Both the position numbers and the translations under genes were made by a program. The notes beneath the pieces were generated by a model that saw nothing but the letters and a program-made list of their open reading frames with translations, was not told the origin of the DNA and made no database searches. A DNA stretch of 64,000 bases, taken from positions 1 through 64,000 of the forward strand of contig JAFKDC010000002.1 in NCBI GenBank assembly GCA_017255395.1, read 5' to 3'. Shown piece by piece: positions 51,873-60,766 of the stretch (position 1 is its first letter; each line of letters opens with the position of its first letter). Source of the DNA: Enemella evansiae (lineage in GTDB: Bacteria > Pseudomonadota > Alphaproteobacteria > Rhodobacterales > Rhodobacteraceae).

Positions 51873-53585
51873 ATGACACCGACCCCCAATGCACGGCTGC
51901 TGCCGTTCCTCATGATCGCCGGAGCGCTTGCCGGAGCGGCGGGCTGGGCCCTGACAGAGGCCTGGGACAGCGCCGTTCTGGCGCCCCGGGCGCTGCTTTT
52001 CCTGACCGCCCTTGCGGCGGCGGGCTTCACGCTTCTGCTCGCCCTGTCGGGGCCTGTGGCACCGGCGCGCGCGGTGCTGCCGTCGGTGCTGGCGGGGGCG
52101 GTGCTGGCGGCGGCGCTGTGGTGGGCATCGGGGCGGCACGGTGACGTCCAGTCCTTCCTCGAACTCGGCTACCCGCTTGCGGCCTTCGGCCTTGCGCTGT
52201 CGATTGCCATACCCTTTCTCGTGGCGGGACTGTCGCGCCCGGACGGCTGGACGGACTACCCGGCGCTCTTCGACGCGACATGGGAGACGACGGTGCGCCT
52301 GCTGGCGGGCGTCTTCTTTGCCGCGCTCTTCTGGGGGTTGCTGTCGCTCTCGGATGCGCTGCTGAGACTCGTCGACGTGCGGCTGCTGGAGTGGGTGACC
52401 GATATCGAGGCCGTTGCATGGGCCCTGACCGGCACGGTCTTCGGGCTGGCGCTGGCGGTCATGTTCCGGCTGTCGGGGCAGGTCTCTCCGGTCCTGCTGC
52501 TGAGGCTTCTGAGGCTCTTGCTGCCGGTGGTGCTGGTGGTGACGCTGGTCTTTCTGGCGGCCTTGCCGCTGCGTGGCTGGGAGGGGCTGGCGCAGGGCTT
52601 CTCGCCCGCCGCGATCCTGATGGCGGTGGCGCTGGCGGCGGTGGTGCTGGTCACCGTGGCGGTGGACCGCGACAGCGGGGAGGCCGTGCAGAGCCGCCCC
52701 TGGCGGATGATGACCGGCGCACTGGCGCTCTGCGTGCCGCTTCTGGCCGGGCTGGCGGGCTGGGCGTTGTGGCTGCGCGTGGGGCAATACGGCTGGACAC
52801 CCTCGCGGCTGATGGCGGCCTGCGTGGTCGCCGTGCTGCTGGTCTACGGGCTGGCCTATGCGTTGTCGGTCCTGATCGGGCGGCACTGGATGGCGCGCCT
52901 GCGCGAAGTGAACACATGGATGGCGCTTGCGGTTCTGGCGATCTGCCTGCTGTGGCTGAGCCCGGCCTTCGAGCCCGAGCGCACCGCCGCTTCGGATCAG
53001 GTGAACCGGGCACGCTCGGGCGTTGCCGGTGCGACCCTGCCGCTGCCGGAACTGGCGCAGGAGTGGGGCAGGTCGGGCAAGGCGGCGCTGGAGGCCATCG
53101 CCGAAGCCCGGCCCGACCTGGCCGCCGAGATCGAGCTGGCGCGCCTGGGGCGCAGCCGGCCCGCGCCTGAATCGCTGCTGGCAGAGCGGCGCGCCGCGGT
53201 GATCGCGGCCCTGCCGGTCTATCCCGAGGGCGCCACGCTGGACGGCGACTCGCTGGCAGAGATGGACGCGATCCAGCTTTCGGGCCTGCTGGAGGCCTGC
53301 GCGCGGCGCGTGACCGGGGGGCCGGGCTGTGCCTTCTACCGTCAGGGCGAGGCGCGCGCGCTGCTGTTGCAGAAGGTCTCGGAGGATTTCGTGACCCTGA
53401 CGCCCATGCAACTGAGCGGTGGCGTGTGGCAGCCCGGCGGGCGGCTGATCACATTGGACGGTGATCAGGGTCCGGGGGACCGGGTCGCGGCGCTTGAGGC
53501 CCTGCATCGCGGCGGGATCGGCACGCAAAGCCGGACGATCGAGGTTCTCTGGTTGGGGGATATGCTGTTGTACCTGCCCGAGTGA
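51873..53585 (+). CDS. DUF4153 domain-containing membrane protein
   Basis: 570 residues: about ten membrane helices in the first ~380 residues (for example FLMIAGALAGAAGWALTEAW, LLLPVVLVVTLVFLAALPL, VVAVLLVYGLAYALSVLIG) then a soluble C-terminal domain of ~190 residues with VNRARSGVAGATLPLPELAQEW. DUF4153/DUF4173 proteins are of unknown function. An ATG 18 bp upstream (51855) is a possible start but has poorer ribosome-binding-site spacing. Preceded by the structured leader. Confidence 0.82.
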   Translation: MTPTPNARLLPFLMIAGALAGAAGWALTEAWDSAVLAPRALLFLTALAAAGFTLLLALSGPVAPARAVLPSVLAGAVLAAALWWASGRHGDVQSFLELGYPLAAFGLALSIAIPFLVAGLSRPDGWTDYPALFDATWETTVRLLAGVFFAALFWGLLSLSDALLRLVDVRLLEWVTDIEAVAWALTGTVFGLALAVMFRLSGQVSPVLLLRLLRLLLPVVLVVTLVFLAALPLRGWEGLAQGFSPAAILMAVALAAVVLVTVAVDRDSGEAVQSRPWRMMTGALALCVPLLAGLAGWALWLRVGQYGWTPSRLMAACVVAVLLVYGLAYALSVLIGRHWMARLREVNTWMALAVLAICLLWLSPAFEPERTAASDQVNRARSGVAGATLPLPELAQEWGRSGKAALEAIAEARPDLAAEIELARLGRSRPAPESLLAERRAAVIAALPVYPEGATLDGDSLAEMDAIQLSGLLEACARRVTGGPGCAFYRQGEARALLLQKVSEDFVTLTPMQLSGGVWQPGGRLITLDGDQGPGDRVAALEALHRGGIGTQSRTIEVLWLGDMLLYLPE

Positions 53586-53676
53586 GGCGCGGCGACTATT
53601 TATCCGCAATTGCGATTGTTACGTCTTTCTTAAGGCCGCCCGCCTCATGGTCCCACCCAATGCGGTGAGGTTTCCT

Positions 53677-54282
53677 ATGATGCATGGATTGATCCTTCGG
53701 ACCTTTCAGGTTTTCGTTCAGGACACTTATGGCTCTGAACCGTGGCGGCGGATCGTCGACGGGGCGGGGCTGGATGCGCCGGATTTCGAGGCCATGCTCA
53801 GTTATCCGCAGGACACCTTCACGGCGGTTGTCGGGGCCGCCGAGGTGGAACTGAGAAAGCCCCCGGACGCCTTTCTGGAAGATGTCGGCACCTACCTCGT
53901 CTCGCACCCCAACAGCGAGGGGCTGCGCCGTCTTCTGCGCTTCGGGGGTGTCGATTTCATCGAGTTCCTGCATTCGCTGGAGGATCTGCCAGACCGGGCC
54001 CGGCTGGCCGTCGCGGATCTGGAGCTGCCGGATCTGGACCTTGTGGACGTGGCGCCCCACCGGTTCACGCTGCAGGTCGGGGCGGGGCTGCCCGGCTTCG
54101 GTTTTGTCCTGCTGGGCGTGCTGCGGGCCATGGCCGATGACTATGGCGCGCTTGTGCTGATGGAGTGTGACAGCGGCACCCTGGGACGGCAGACCATCGC
54201 CATCACCCTGGTCGAGACCGCCTATTCGCAGGGACGGCAATTCGCCCTGGCGGCGTCCGGCGCGCCGGAGGAGGAGGGATGA
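53677..54282 (+). CDS. H-NOX (heme NO/O2-binding) fold protein lacking heme ligands
   Basis: 201 residues; overall like a bacterial H-NOX protein: MMHGLILRTFQVFVQDTYGSEPW, LEDVGTYLVSHPNSEGL and VDFIEFLHSLEDLPDRARL align with the expected alpha-helices. At the proximal heme-ligand site (typical FLMMMDEVH or LENLHERV), this protein has FLHSLEDLP, so Pro105 replaces the histidine; the YxSxR propionate-binding motif is also absent (LQVGAGLPG). The usual start has GTGAGG in front. It overlaps the GGDEF gene by 4 bp, so the two are a sensor-output pair. Whether it binds heme by another ligand (His99 is near) is unknown. Confidence 0.78.
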   Translation: MMHGLILRTFQVFVQDTYGSEPWRRIVDGAGLDAPDFEAMLSYPQDTFTAVVGAAEVELRKPPDAFLEDVGTYLVSHPNSEGLRRLLRFGGVDFIEFLHSLEDLPDRARLAVADLELPDLDLVDVAPHRFTLQVGAGLPGFGFVLLGVLRAMADDYGALVLMECDSGTLGRQTIAITLVETAYSQGRQFALAASGAPEEEG

Positions 54283-55277
54283 CCGGGGTGCCCACCGAGA
54301 TCCTGCTGGCGCTCTGCCCGATGCATGCGGTGCTCGACCCCGGGGGCCGCATCCGGCAGGCGGGGCCGACGCTGCGCAAGCTGCGCGAGGAGGGGCTGGA
54401 CAGCGAACGCTTTCTCGATGTTTTCGAAGTCTACCGCCCGCGCCGGGTCGAGAGCATGGCGCAGCTTCTGTCGACCGAGGGGCGCAAGCTGCACCTGCGC
54501 CTGCGCGGCGGTCTGCGGACGCCGCTGAAGGGCATCATGGTGCCGGACGGGCAGGGCGGCGCGGTGGTGAACCTGTCCTTCGGCATTTCGGTCATGGATG
54601 CGGTGCGGGATTATGCCCTGACCAACACCGATTTCGCGCCCACCGACCTTGCTGTCGAAATGCTCTACCTCGTTGAGGCGAAATCCGCCGCGCTGGATGC
54701 GTCGCGCAGCCTGAACACCCGCCTTCAGGGGGCCATGGTCGCGGCAGAGGAACGTGCCTTCACCGATACGCTGACCGGGCTGCGCAACCGCCGCGCGCTC
54801 GACGCGGTGCTGGACCGCGTCACCCGCAGCGGAGAGCCGTTTTCGCTGATGCATCTCGACCTCGATTTCTTCAAGCAGGTCAACGACAGCATGGGGCACG
54901 CCGCCGGGGATCAGGTCCTGCGGCAGGTGGCGCGTGTGATGCTGGAGGTGACGCGCAAGGACGATACGGTTGCGCGCATCGGCGGCGACGAGTTCGTGCT
55001 GCTGTTCCCCGGCCTCACGCGGCACGAACGCCTGGCAGAGATGGCCGGTCGCCTGATCTCACGCGTCGAAGAACCGATTCCCGTCGATGCGGAAGAGTGC
55101 CGGGTCTCCCTGAGCATCGGAATCACCGTTTCAGACCGTGGGCAGGCGACCCCGGAAGAGATATTGTTGCAGTCGGACGAGGCGCTCTACGCCTCGAAAC
55201 GCGCGGGCCGGGCGCAGTTTCGCTTCTACGAAAACACCGCCAAGGGCCCTTCTGCCGGACGCATTGCCGGAGAATGA
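54279..55277 (+). CDS. HNOBA-GGDEF diguanylate cyclase
   Basis: 332 residues. Residues 1-130 resemble the H-NOX-associated (HNOBA) PAS-like domain (LLALCPMHAVLDPGGRIRQAG, with SFGISVMDAV later), residues ~133-160 a signalling helix, and 160-320 a GGDEF domain: DTLTGLRNRRAL, HLDLDFFKQVNDSMGH, active-site GGDEF at 235-239 and an RxxD inhibitory site RKDD at 226-229. All catalytic residues are intact, so it should make cyclic di-GMP under control of the partner H-NOX-like protein. The ATG overlaps that gene's stop. Confidence 0.88.
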   Translation: MTGVPTEILLALCPMHAVLDPGGRIRQAGPTLRKLREEGLDSERFLDVFEVYRPRRVESMAQLLSTEGRKLHLRLRGGLRTPLKGIMVPDGQGGAVVNLSFGISVMDAVRDYALTNTDFAPTDLAVEMLYLVEAKSAALDASRSLNTRLQGAMVAAEERAFTDTLTGLRNRRALDAVLDRVTRSGEPFSLMHLDLDFFKQVNDSMGHAAGDQVLRQVARVMLEVTRKDDTVARIGGDEFVLLFPGLTRHERLAEMAGRLISRVEEPIPVDAEECRVSLSIGITVSDRGQATPEEILLQSDEALYASKRAGRAQFRFYENTAKGPSAGRIAGE

Positions 55278-55337
55278 TTTTTTCGGCGAGGGGGGCTTGA
55301 TCCTCCCGAAATGCCGTCGTAAGTAGCGCGCCACGGT

Positions 55338-55412
55338 TGGGGTGTAGCCAAGTGGTAAGGCACCGGTTTTTGGTACCGCGCACCGTAGGTTCGAATCCTA
55401 CCACCCCAGCCA
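55338..55412 (+). tRNA. tRNA-Gln(TTG)
   Basis: 75-nt tRNA with 3' CCA encoded. Acceptor stem TGGGGTG / CACCCCA is perfect, D-arm region TAGCCAAGTGGTAAGGCA, anticodon loop TTTTGGT with anticodon TTG, and T-arm TAGGTTCGAATCCTA. The bottom of the anticodon stem has a C-C mismatch at 27-43. Confidence 0.93.
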
Positions 55413-55837: not shown

Positions 55838-56407
55838 TGAGCTGCTCCCCATCCCTTGGACAGTTTCCGGGATGATTTGAGCTACCCTCTGCCCCTGCTG
55901 GTCGGTTTCGATCTGGTTGAAGTAGACCAGGGCAGGCGGTTGTCGGCCATGGGCGGCGTGGGGCCGCTGGTGGTTGTAGAAGGTGATCCATCGGCCAACG
56001 CCGGCCTTGGCCTGCGAGCCGGTCTCCCAGGCGTGGAGGTAGACGCACTCATACTTCAGGGACCGCCGGAGCCGTTCGATGAAGATGTTGTCGAGACACC
56101 GGCCCTTGGCGGCCTTGCTGGTGTTGGGCTTCTGGTAAATCGGCATCAGACGCATGAGCCGCATCAGGCGTCTGATGCGCTTCTGGTTCACAGGATGCCC
56201 CTCGTTCTGCAGGTGTCAGGTCATCTGCCGGACGCCGTAGAACGGGGTTTCCAGGAACTGCTGGTCGATCACCTGCATCAGCGCCTGGTTCATCTCGGTC
56301 TCGCCCTGTGGCGCGTAGGAGAATGACGACCGCGAGACCGACAGCAGGCGGCATTGCGTCCCGACCGACAGCGAGGGGTGAGCACGTTCAATCATCCCGC
56401 GCCTCAC
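55832..56407 (-). pseudogene. IS3-family transposase orfB, deleted and with nonsense codon
   Basis: The N-terminus RRGMIERAHPSLSVGTQCRL through FYGVRQMT is followed by an in-frame TGA (56216-56218) where relatives have TGG (Trp). Continuing in frame: HLQNEGHPVNQKRIRRLMR, then MPIYQKPNTSKAAKG joined straight to RCLDNIFIERLRRSLKYECV. About 110 residues holding the first two catalytic acids are missing. C-terminal HAWETGSQAKAGVGRWITFY and the last catalytic Glu region survive. Nonfunctional. Confidence 0.82.
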
Positions 56408-56814
56408 TTGCCGGTCCACGGCCTGAGCTTTCTGGACAAAAAATCGTTGGCGACGGCCAGCTCTCCGATCTTGGCGTGCAGCGACCGCACCGTCTCCTTG
56501 TCGACCTCGGCTTTTTTCTTCCCGCCGCGTTCGAAGATCTCCGATGCCATTTCGAGCAGCGCCTTCTTCCATTGATGGATCATCGTCGCCTATCGGACAT
56601 GCTTTGCATGTCCTGTCGGTTCAAGATGCACGCCGTATTCTGCGGCCAGCGCCGACACGGTGCGCTCGCCCTTCACGGCTTCCAGCGCCACGCGAGCCTT
56701 GAAGCCCGCGTCGTGGTTCCTGCGTTTCGACATCGTCTGCTCTCCTCGTTCTTGGAGATCAGCAGACGGCAGATCGTAGCGCACGTCACTGTCCGATTTT
56801 CCGGGAGAAGCTCA
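55838..56814 (-). mobile_element. Decayed IS3-family element
   Basis: 977 bp bounded by inverted repeats. The left end reads TGAGCT-G-CTCCC...GGACAGT at 55838-55864 and the right end, reversed, TGAGCT-T-CTCCC...GGACAGT at 56814-56788; the intervening 8 bases differ. It is shorter than a normal ~1.3-kb element of this type because of an internal deletion in orfB. No clear target duplication: flanks GAC and GAT. Not autonomous (see orfA and orfB). Confidence 0.85.
56404..56733 (-). pseudogene. IS3-family orfA with small palindromic insertion
   Basis: Starts MSKRRNHDAGFKARVALEAV. Between the conserved GVH and MIHQWKKALLEMASEIFERG there is an extra ~36 bp containing a palindrome GGACATGC-TTT-GCATGTCC at 56595-56613 and an in-frame TAG at 56590-56592. 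The remainder up to RKLRPWTGK and its stop is intact, in the same frame. The insertion thus disables a gene that is otherwise complete. Confidence 0.75.
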
Positions 56815-56917
56815 GATGGCTGGCGCGTAGAGAACTCCTTGCCGGAAGGGGCCGTGATTGTGCGCTCCAGAGCGAGACGACTTGACTCGGCGAAGCGTTA
56901 CAATACCGTCACGCTCC

Positions 56918-57070
56918 ATGAGCTCCAACATATCTGTCAGCAACGCCCTCACAGCGCTCTGGGAGCGTATGAATCCCGTGGAACCTTCGATCGGCTATCT
57001 GGTCAAACTGATGATCGCCTGCCTGTCGGTCATGGCCCTCGGCGGGCTGATCGGGCACTTCTGGATCTGA
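56918..57070 (+). CDS. Small hypothetical membrane protein
   Basis: 50 residues with one strong membrane helix (LVKLMIACLSVMALGGLIGHFW) and a plausible soluble N-terminus MSSNISVSNALTALWERMNP. A GCGCG..CGCGC TTTT terminator follows the stop by 8 bp, which supports expression, but no good ribosome-binding site is visible. Might alternatively start upstream at 56858. Function unknown; it lies between the IS3 remnant and the TIR gene. Confidence 0.35.
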   Translation: MSSNISVSNALTALWERMNPVEPSIGYLVKLMIACLSVMALGGLIGHFWI

Positions 57071-57179: not shown

Positions 57180-58661
57180 CTAAGAATCAGCTTCCAGCAT
57201 CTTTTGAGCCAATAGTTCGACTAGTTCTTTGACTTCTGCCTCGGGTTTTTCGTTCTTGATGCGAAAATGCCCAACTTTCTCTATCTTCGAGAAGACATGA
57301 TCCTTGAAGTTACCAATCAAGATGGGAATGACGGCTCCATCTCCCAGCCTTTCTTCGAACTTCGTAACTTCAAACCTTGGCCACATTTTCTTTGAATATT
57401 CATCGTCAATAATGCAGAGAACGTATTTTGCCTCCGATCGATATATCGGTTCAAGGTATTCCTCAATATCTTGAGCGAGCATACGCTGCTCTTCCTGTCT
57501 GTCATAGAATACTTCAAACTGAAATTCCTGAAGGCCTTCAAATATTCTTTCAGCGATGGCTCTTGAGGTTCCCGAAAATGATAGAGCAAAGTCGTATCGC
57601 GTTTTGAATGTTACATTCTTGAATCCTACTTCTTTTGTAAAATGATTCCACGGCATTTCTCTAATATAGAAGGCAAACTGCGGGTCTTCAAGCGTGAGGC
57701 GAGTGTTATCGGGGTCGAAATGCAGGACTGCCGATATATCTGAGTTGTTCTCGATGTGATCTCGGAGATAGTTCTTCTGAACAACTTGACCCACACTGCC
57801 TCTCATCTGGGAGTGTTTTTGCAGCATGTCGCGAATAGATAAGGTCCACTCGTTTTGTTCCGCCAACCAAAACAAGACGTGGTGATACGGCGCTCTGCCG
57901 CTAGCTTGAAACTTTGGCCCCTTGCAAAAGGTTATCGTACGATCCTTGAACCTGTTGCTTAAGTCCCGCCAAACACCGCTCTTCACTTGTTCAAAGCTGA
58001 TATCGATAGTTTCTTGCTTTTCTCTGCTTTCCAGAACGTTCGCCTTAGCGCAAAGTTCATAGCAAAGCATCTGAGCTAAGTAGAAACTGCCTCCACTGGC
58101 TGTCGCGATCTGATCTTTTGAATCTATTTTAATATTAAGCGCTGTTTCTCCCTTGGTGATTAGTTCAGCCATCTTCTCCAGAGGATTAACTTCCATCCTG
58201 AAGAAATCCACGCGATTTGTGACATCATCCGCAAACGAAATCAGTCTCTTTCCACAGTCGTTAATCCCTACAATTACTATATCTAGGTCGTCTCTTTCTT
58301 CGTCAGCGCATACCTTGACGACGTCGGCGATCTTTCTCTGAATTTCTGCATCGAATTTGTGAAAGTCGTCGAATATATAGCTGCCGGAGAACTCGGATTC
58401 TAAGAGTTTTGCAACGGCTTCTCGCTCAGTAGCTTTCCTTGCAGAATACTTCACAAACGTATCATTTTTTCCCGTTCGTTCGAGTGCATTCTTAATTGCA
58501 GTTGTTTTTCCAATTCCAGAAGGCCCTTCCACCACGGCGCTTCTGCCAGGAGCTCTAAGTGAGACCACCAGTTTAGAAAAATCTACTGGTTCGACGAATG
58601 TGTGAGTTGGAGTACCACTTTTCTTGAAAACGTCTTCCAGAAATACTTTCATCTCACCCAT
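57180..58661 (-). CDS. ATPase-TIR protein, candidate anti-phage defence gene
   Basis: 493 residues. A P-loop ATPase occupies about 30-240: Walker [10 protein letters not shown] (46-54), Walker B SYIFDDF (94-100), sensor-like VIVGIND (129-134), and [17 protein letters not shown] (188-204), as in STAND/AAA-type NTPases. Residues 355-485 form a TIR domain: [50 protein letters not shown], and Glu431 in the FEVTKFE helix, where the NADase Glu is expected. The DNA is far AT-richer than its neighbours. The start overlaps the lepA stop by 8 bp; the second ATG (58652) is possible. TIR at the C-terminus is unlike most bacterial STAND-TIR proteins. Confidence 0.8.
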
Positions 58662-60459
58662 CCATCTTCAACGCCGAGATAAACGCTTCCTGCGGGATCT
58701 CGACCTTGCCGAACTGGCGCATGCGCTTCTTGCCGGCCTTCTGCTTCTCCAGCAGCTTCTTCTTCCGCGTGGCGTCGCCGCCGTAGCACTTGGCGGTCAC
58801 GTCCTTGCGCATCGCCGACAGCGTCTCGCGCGCGATGACCTTGCCGCCGATGGCCGCCTGGATCGGGATCTTGAACATGTGGCGGGGGATCAGATCCTTG
58901 AGCTTCTCGCACATGGCGCGGCCGCGCATCTCGGCCCGGTCGCGGTGGACCATCATCGACAGCGCGTCCACGGGTTCGTCGTTGACGAGGATCTGCATCT
59001 TCACGAGGTTGTCTTCGCGGTAGCCTTCCAGCGCGTAATCGAAGGAGGCGTAACCCTTCGTTACCGATTTCAGCCTATCGTAAAAGTCGAAGACGACCTC
59101 GTTGAGGGGCAGGTCGTAGACGGCCATGGCGCGGCCGCCGACATAGGTCAGGTCCAGCTGGATGCCGCGGCGGTCCTGGCAGAGCTTCAGCACGTCGCCG
59201 AGGTATTCGTCGGGCACGAGGATGGTCGCCTTGATGCGCGGCTCTTCGACGTGGTCGACGTAGGTCAGGTCGGGCATGTCGGCGGGGTTGTGCAGGTCGC
59301 GCCGCTCCCCGTCCTTCATGTAGAGGTGGTAGATCACCGAAGGCGCGGTGGTGATCAGGTCGATGTCATACTCGCGCTCCAGCCGGTCGCGGATCACCTC
59401 GAGGTGCAAAAGGCCGAGGAAGCCGCAGCGGAAGCCGAAGCCGAGCGCGGCAGAGGTTTCCATCTCGTAGGTGAAGGAGGCATCGTTCAGCGCCAGCTTC
59501 TCGATGGCGTCGCGCATGTCCTCGAAGTCGTTGGCGTCCACCGGGAAAAGGCCGCAGAAGACGACGGGAATCGAGGGTTTGAAGCCGGGCAGCGGGTCGG
59601 TCGCGCCCTTCTTCTCATGCGTGATGGTGTCGCCGACACGGGTGTCGCGCACCTGCTTGATCGACCCGGTGAAGAAGCCGATCTCGCCGGGGCCAAGCTC
59701 TGGCACGTCTTGCATGGCGGGGCGGAAGACGCCCAGCTTGTCGACGCCGTACTTGCCGCCGGTGCGCATCATCTTGATGTTGTCGCCCTTGCGGATCGTA
59801 CCGTCCATGACGCGGATCAGAACGACGACGCCGAGGTAAGGGTCGTACCACGAGTCCACCAGCATCGCCTTGAGCGGCGCGTCCGGGTCGCCGCCGTGGG
59901 GCGGGGGCAGGCGGGTGACGATGGCCTCCAGCACGTCGGGGATGCCGACGCCGGTCTTGGCCGAGATCAGGCAGGCGTTGGAGGCGTCGATGCCGATGAC
60001 GTCCTCGATCTGCTCGGCGACCTTTTCCGGTTCGGCCGCCGGCAGGTCGACCTTGTTGAGCACGGGCACGATCTCGTGGTCGGCCTCGATGGCGGTATAG
60101 ACGTTCGCCAGAGTCTGCGCCTCGACACCCTGAGAGGCATCGACGACCAGCAGCGAGCCTTCGACCGCGCGCATGGAGCGGGAGACCTCGTAGGCGAAGT
60201 CGACGTGCCCGGGGGTGTCGATCAGGTTGAGGATATAGGTCTGGCCGTCCTTCGCCGGATAGTCGATGCGGACGGTGTTGGCCTTGATGGTGATGCCGCG
60301 TTCGCGCTCGATGTCCATGGCGTCGAGAAGCTGGGCCTTCATGTCGCGTTCGGCGACGGTTCCGGTCAGCTGGATCAGCCGGTCGGCCAGGGTGGATTTC
60401 CCGTGGTCGATATGGGCGACGATGGAGAAGTTGCGGATGCGGGACAAGGGTGTGCTCAT
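58654..60459 (-). CDS. lepA: Elongation factor 4 (LepA)
   Basis: 601 residues, full length. GTPase motifs [13 protein letters not shown] (G1), [12 protein letters not shown] (G3), NKVD (G4) and the EF-G-like domains and C-terminal unique domain ending [17 protein letters not shown]. Back-translocates stalled ribosomes or aids initiation. Its stop lies inside the start of the adjacent TIR gene. A later ATG at 60459 is chosen ([11 protein letters not shown]); earlier frames are not homologous. Confidence 0.97.
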
Positions 60460-60766
60460 GTCTCGCGATATGCGGTGGAACAGGGGTTTGGTCAAGTGGG
60501 CTTGCGTGTCGGAAGCCGAACCGCCGCGGGTTTCGGCGCAGTCTATGCCGGTTCCTGCCTTTTGCGGTCATCGGGGGCCGGTTTCCCCTGGGTGTCGGGC
60601 CGTGACAGATCCGCGCTGGCGCGCAGATTTCGGTGACCCCGTCCCGGCGCGGCAGGACGTTAAGGACCGCGCGGCAGTGCGAGCGGTCGGGAGAGGCCAG
60701 CGGTTCGCCAGGGGCAGCGGTGGCCCCCCTGCACAAGCCCGCTGCCACTGGCTTTGGCCGGGCGGA
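60460..60766. other. 307-bp region upstream of lepA
   Basis: No gene seen; the lepA promoter should be here. GC-rich without clear palindrome or repeat. Confidence 0.4.

Follow-up and report, generated by a model that had tools for sequence, protein, structure and literature searches.

The 3′ end of lepA is well supported as a defense hotspot of the Rhodobacteraceae, in which a fixed flank is followed by variable, defense-rich cargo at a frequency above background. One occupant of this site, in the 64,000-nucleotide stretch of DNA analyzed here (the window), is a gene encoding an ATPase-TIR fusion protein. It is probable that this lepA-linked, horizontally transferred gene specifies a single-gene abortive-infection NADase that is triggered through ATP-dependent oligomerization. 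The hotspot was a side remark in the earlier note on this DNA; it is the stronger result than the gene itself.

The lepA 3′ end in the Rhodobacteraceae

The DNA behind lepA was fetched from 115 genomes of the family, almost all from different genera (loci L139-L153 and L168-L267). An AT-rich dip was scored when the GC content of the first kilobase fell short of that of the DNA 2.5-4 kb further on by 8 points or more. Such a dip follows lepA in 52 of 111 genomes, compared with 1 of 126 background windows; these windows overlap one another and were taken from 15 genomes of the set. Behind lepA, 99 AT-rich ORFs were collected; they represent 86 families and are mostly different genes. These ORFs were called by a simple script, and some come from loci of weaker contrast and include ordinary genes, which makes the 51 occupied loci the safer count. 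In 35 of those 51 loci the cargo begins with an ORF oriented like lepA, which in 19 cases lies no more than 75 bp from the lepA stop codon. Sampling was at genus level, so that the swapping of cargo is not itself visible.

The cargo includes a DRT reverse transcriptase, RT_UG13a, recognized with PADLOC and Pfam (1.9e-163), and PDC-M32A/B at two lepA loci. Further cargo ORFs match PDC-S15 (FRG), PDC-S34, PDC-S60 (DUF4062) and PDC-S31, and others match OLD-like AAA, AbiJ_NTD4, SocA/Panacea and SIR2-like proteins. At one locus (L148:2268-4044, plus strand) a GmrSD_N (NsnA-like) gene and then a MAE_28990-type HEPN gene, both AT-rich, stand directly behind lepA, and in another genus (G187, L266:279-1568, minus strand) the same position is held by a PDC-S59-like ATPase without a TIR domain. 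Control ORFs, taken in equal number from positions farther downstream at these loci, had no match in PADLOC (0/59). The suggestion that the lepA 3′ end is an insertion hotspot is therefore borne out by the excess of dips, the diversity of the genes and the defense matches among them. The dip was not clearly seen in eight genomes from other families of the class, which are too few to generalize.

Two observations can be added on individual cargo genes. The DRT-type reverse transcriptase (RT_UG13a) at L143:9647-11470 is convergent with lepA. A family of ~250-270 aa recurs behind lepA in four genera (L142, L153, L202 and L223); the L142 copy has no PADLOC match, no Pfam model recurs in the group, and the family is a candidate defense gene.

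An attachment-like motif was sought after the lepA stop codon and none was found: conservation ends with the last lepA codons, and a conserved motif of this kind was rejected. A literature search, with subscription papers and bioRxiv largely outside its reach, found no report of the site. The lepA 3′ end, occupied in nearly half of the sampled genera and mostly by uncharacterized AT-rich genes, is a hunting ground for new defense systems of the Rhodobacteraceae and poses the question of how cargo enters it.

The ATPase-TIR gene of the window

The host gene lepA (elongation factor 4) lies at 58654..60495 on the minus strand of the window, identified by Pfam LepA_C and GTP_EFTU and by synteny, and its 3′ end is the insertion site. 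Directly behind it, on the same strand, is the ATPase-TIR gene (57180..58652). The ORF 58661..57180 (minus strand) is present in the window and encodes 493 aa from the ATG at 58661, or 490 aa from a second ATG at 58652 (MKVFLEDVF), 1 bp past the lepA stop codon. Aligned relatives begin at the position of this second ATG (M-x-YLEDVF), and for that reason the 8-bp overlap with lepA described in the earlier note is doubtful: it exists if the ATG at 58661 is used, but is probably not real.

The gene is indeed much more AT-rich than the rest of the window, as had been noticed, with a GC content of 44% (0.438) against 67% (0.674) for the window; its third-position GC is 0.46 against 0.91 for lepA. 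It encodes the sole TIR_2 protein of its genome. Horizontal acquisition of this DNA is supported. In a genome of the same genus, G002, lepA is followed after 343 bp by a small convergent ORF, and in the window the corresponding ORF (56918..57070, plus strand) comes after the ATPase-TIR gene. G002 thus shows the site without the gene, and the far edge of the insertion falls between the small ORF and 57180. The region is not conserved in the family, and the alternative raised in the earlier note, a region conserved in all Rhodobacterales with normal base composition, does not apply.

An IS3-like remnant at 55838-56815, read by eye, has broken transposase frames and TGAGCT-type ends and interrupts a metallophosphoesterase-like ORF (55545 onwards). 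The earlier note saw this decayed element as the marker of a variable locus, which is beside the point. Since the conserved small ORF separates the remnant from the gene, the remnant does not bound the insertion and was rejected as its boundary. Also in this region, a heme-NO-binding/GGDEF gene pair with a tRNA-Gln (window 53461-55412, G002:C1:916828-918741) is ~3 kb from lepA in the window and ~28 kb from it in G002, in the opposite relative orientation, so that the two genomes differ by an inversion or rearrangement.

The domains of the protein are, in order, an AAA+ ATPase with core and lid (58038..58580, minus strand), a helical, winged-helix region past the lid (57624..57905, minus strand) and a C-terminal TIR domain (57219..57605, minus strand). 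The first is identified by Pfam AAA_22 (above cut-off, E 8.6e-8), conservation, the structural model and fold matches, and the second by the secondary structure of the model and by alignment with ORC/Cdc6-type chains and with the end of PDC-S59 proteins. The earlier note placed the Walker A motif, the DDFH Walker B region and Glu431 correctly, and all three hardly vary among 100 relatives. Walker A K52 is kept in 99/99 aligned relatives, D98/D99 in 99 of 100 aligned proteins and H101 in all 100. The same alignment contains a sensor-1-like GIN strand, and R150 (100/100) appears to occupy the place expected of an arginine finger. The motif SGGSFYLAQ, earlier called sensor-like, is present but is located in the helical lid of the AAA+ domain.

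The full-length protein was modeled with a pLDDT of 89.5 and a pTM of 0.83, and the ATPase-winged-helix part with values of 94.8 and 0.90. The nearest folds to the latter in Foldseek are ORC/Cdc6, clamp-loader subunits (RFC) and RuvB, no STAND receptor occurs among the top 50 matches, and the nSTAND5 and NB-ARC Pfam models remain below cut-off against the window protein. Classification as a STAND protein is thus supported neither by the Pfam cut-offs nor by the fold ranking. The ATPase resembles the AAA+ proteins of the ORC/Cdc6, clamp-loader and RuvB type more than STAND proteins, although its AAA+ subclass is provisional because the TM-scores are modest (~0.45-0.5) and STAND proteins have the same core. 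Matches to VbhT (Fic) in the structure search were judged to be due to chance.

The TIR domain matches Pfam TIR_2 above cut-off (E 1e-8, residues 358-480), and a profile match to solved TIR structures reaches 2e-11. It contains a WxxxE motif (W427, E431) and D387. In the profile alignment E431 corresponds to E208 of AbTIR, W427 to W204 and D387 to D167, and these AbTIR residues are required for its NADase activity (PMC11374754). W204 is also reported to be necessary for the cyclic product (PMC11374754). Among the ~100 aligned relatives E431 is kept in 97/97, W427 in 97/98 and D387 in 97/98. The claim of a C-terminal TIR domain with Glu431 at the NADase position is upheld by the TIR_2 match, the confident model and the alignment, which also place this Glu within a TIR fold. 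The TIR domain carries an intact predicted NADase active-site signature.

Family distribution and proposed function

A query of species genomes with the single window protein found no relative. A profile of seven sequences, drawn from hits on plasmids and within the family and used for both species genomes and viral contigs, recovered 80 loci in the former and 16 in the latter. More than 80 relatives are full length, nearly all of ~490-510 aa, with the same domain order and 25-48% identity. The ATPase-then-TIR order, which had been regarded as a reversed and odd arrangement, is therefore the norm in a large existing family. The relatives span 15 or more phylum-level groups, one archaeal bin among them, and are also found on plasmids and in viral contigs. 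The phylum label changes many times along the family tree, which fits with horizontal transfer. In 79 of 89 loci the GC content of the gene is lower than that of its flanks by 5 points or more, and at no locus is the gene the richer in GC. The bacterial family of the window has two full-length copies in 298 genomes; they belong to different subfamilies and are ~30% identical.

Neighbor clustering across 99 loci found no conserved partner gene outside prophage clusters, and a conserved operon partner was rejected. Since no neighbor family is conserved, the gene has the look of a one-gene system, in agreement with the single-gene organization first proposed. Recognizable neighbors among the 118 tested include four type I specificity subunits, three TIR proteins and two integrases, and recognized defense genes are a minority of the immediate neighbors over all loci. 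The gene is near TIR, caspase or CapV-type genes on three plasmids. On the prophage-like contigs L094, L095, L097 and L108 (and L100) it stands between the same two tail-type genes, likely a cargo position in the phage genome.

The residue conservation, models and fold matches lead us to infer that the protein assembles in an ATP-dependent manner and that the TIR domains, once clustered, destroy NAD+. At rest the protein would be an inactive monomer or small oligomer. During infection the ATPase-winged-helix part would meet an infection product, which the fold leads us to guess is DNA of the phage or one of its DNA-bound proteins, and this product would drive ATP-dependent assembly of a ring or filament. 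Assembly would unite the TIR domains into composite active sites; NAD+ would then be destroyed and the infected cell would halt before phage release. The position of the gene on the same strand directly behind lepA suggests co-transcription with lepA. The window protein contains no C-terminal superstructure-forming repeat sensor, its 490 aa being filled by ATPase, winged helix and TIR, and this absence of a dedicated repeat sensor domain counts against the defense-NADase reading.

It is less likely, by a wide measure, that the TIR domain makes a signal, a cyclic ADP-ribose-type product to which a separate effector would respond, as in Thoeris. From sequence, NAD depletion and signal production cannot be told apart; W427 aligns with the AbTIR residue implicated in cyclization, some relatives match ThsB-like models, and a few copies are near other TIR genes. 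Against it, no partner gene is kept across the 99 loci, and the window copy is alone. Similarly improbable is an addiction or maintenance module, or inter-element exclusion, in which the protein guards its own plasmid or prophage against competing elements. The plasmid and prophage-like copies, several of which share one position among tail genes, would fit this explanation, but the window copy is chromosomal, sits in a housekeeping context and has neither a mobile-element gene as its immediate neighbor nor an antitoxin-like partner. A non-enzymatic or non-defense role, with the TIR domain as an interaction scaffold or the protein as an ORC-like regulator, is suggested by the resemblance of the ATPase-winged-helix part to replication initiators and is very improbable given that the catalytic Glu and WxxxE are fully conserved, that the gene is patchy and AT-rich in its occurrence, and that the site holds defense cargo.

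The abortive-infection NADase remains our preferred reading, and a more specific version of it can be put forward tentatively, as a possibility that we think more likely wrong than right: an ORC/Cdc6-like, initiator-type AAA+ module would serve as an intracellular sensor of phage DNA or replication intermediates that assembles and clusters C-terminal TIR NADases. The gene would then be one cargo of a previously unreported lepA hotspot, in which cargo relies on the transcript of lepA and is exchanged through recombination, with no integrase of its own. If the ATPase-winged-helix part does sense infection directly, replication-initiator-type AAA+ machines would be tied to immunity, and the protein would offer a compact model of TIR activation. 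A compact one-gene TIR sensor-effector that occurs in many phyla and is unnamed in the catalogs searched should be easy to clone and test.

Relationship to known systems

The best PADLOC match of the window protein is the single-gene phage defense candidate PDC-S59 (E 9.6e-13), which covers only residues 79-346. At least 86 of 87 members of the ATPase-TIR family match PDC-S59 (best E 2.4e-25), PADLOC counts over members being lower bounds. The ATPase-winged-helix parts are homologous, but the PDC-S59 proteins are ~430 aa long, stop after the winged helix, lack a TIR domain and have a ~65-residue insert after Walker A that is absent from the window protein. The window protein is for these reasons not a member of PDC-S59; since its ATPase half belongs to the PDC-S59 superfamily, the fusion is not wholly outside the catalogs either. 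The NCBIfam models gave weak partial matches only. Similarity to DS-41, a DefensePredictor system (PMC13092281), is confined to the P-loop region (E 0.003, 16.8 bits against a curated cut-off of 370 bits), and in the reverse test a DS41_1 protein above the curated cut-off matched the ATPase-TIR family profile without significance (E 0.077), so that DS-41 was rejected as a named equivalent. A literature search for PDC-S59 or a named ATPase-TIR fusion, again largely without access to subscription papers and bioRxiv, found nothing relevant. The earlier failure to match the gene to a named system thus persists after the HMM comparison with PADLOC: no known defense family under another name was found, and only the PDC-S59 module is shared. 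A TIR effector joined to an ATPase is a known kind of protein, and this fusion is unnamed in the catalogs searched.

Thoeris ThsB and retron-TIR show TIR subtype similarity to some relatives, whereas the matches of the window protein to them are weak and partial; no ThsA-type partner adjoins the window gene or recurs as a conserved neighbor, and an RT/ncRNA retron partner is also absent. The AbTIR and TcpB-type bacterial TIR NADases resemble the window protein in their TIR fold and in the E, W and D residues that align, but have other companion domains and no AAA+ ATPase. STAND receptors such as TIR-NLR and Avs have in common with the window protein a P-loop with Walker A and B. The TIR-NLR of P4-like satellites, validated against phages (PMC9122126), likewise unites a P-loop NTPase and a TIR effector in one polypeptide, where the TIR is combined with a STAND NTPase in the center and TPR repeats at the C terminus (PMC9122126); in contrast, the window protein has its TIR domain at the C terminus, no repeats and an NTPase with an ORC/RuvB-like fold. 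The insertion site also has known counterparts: the P2/P4 phage hotspots and the defense-island integration sites of E. coli likewise hold variable defense cargo at a fixed position, whereas the lepA site belongs to the Rhodobacteraceae and carries cargo of one or two genes.
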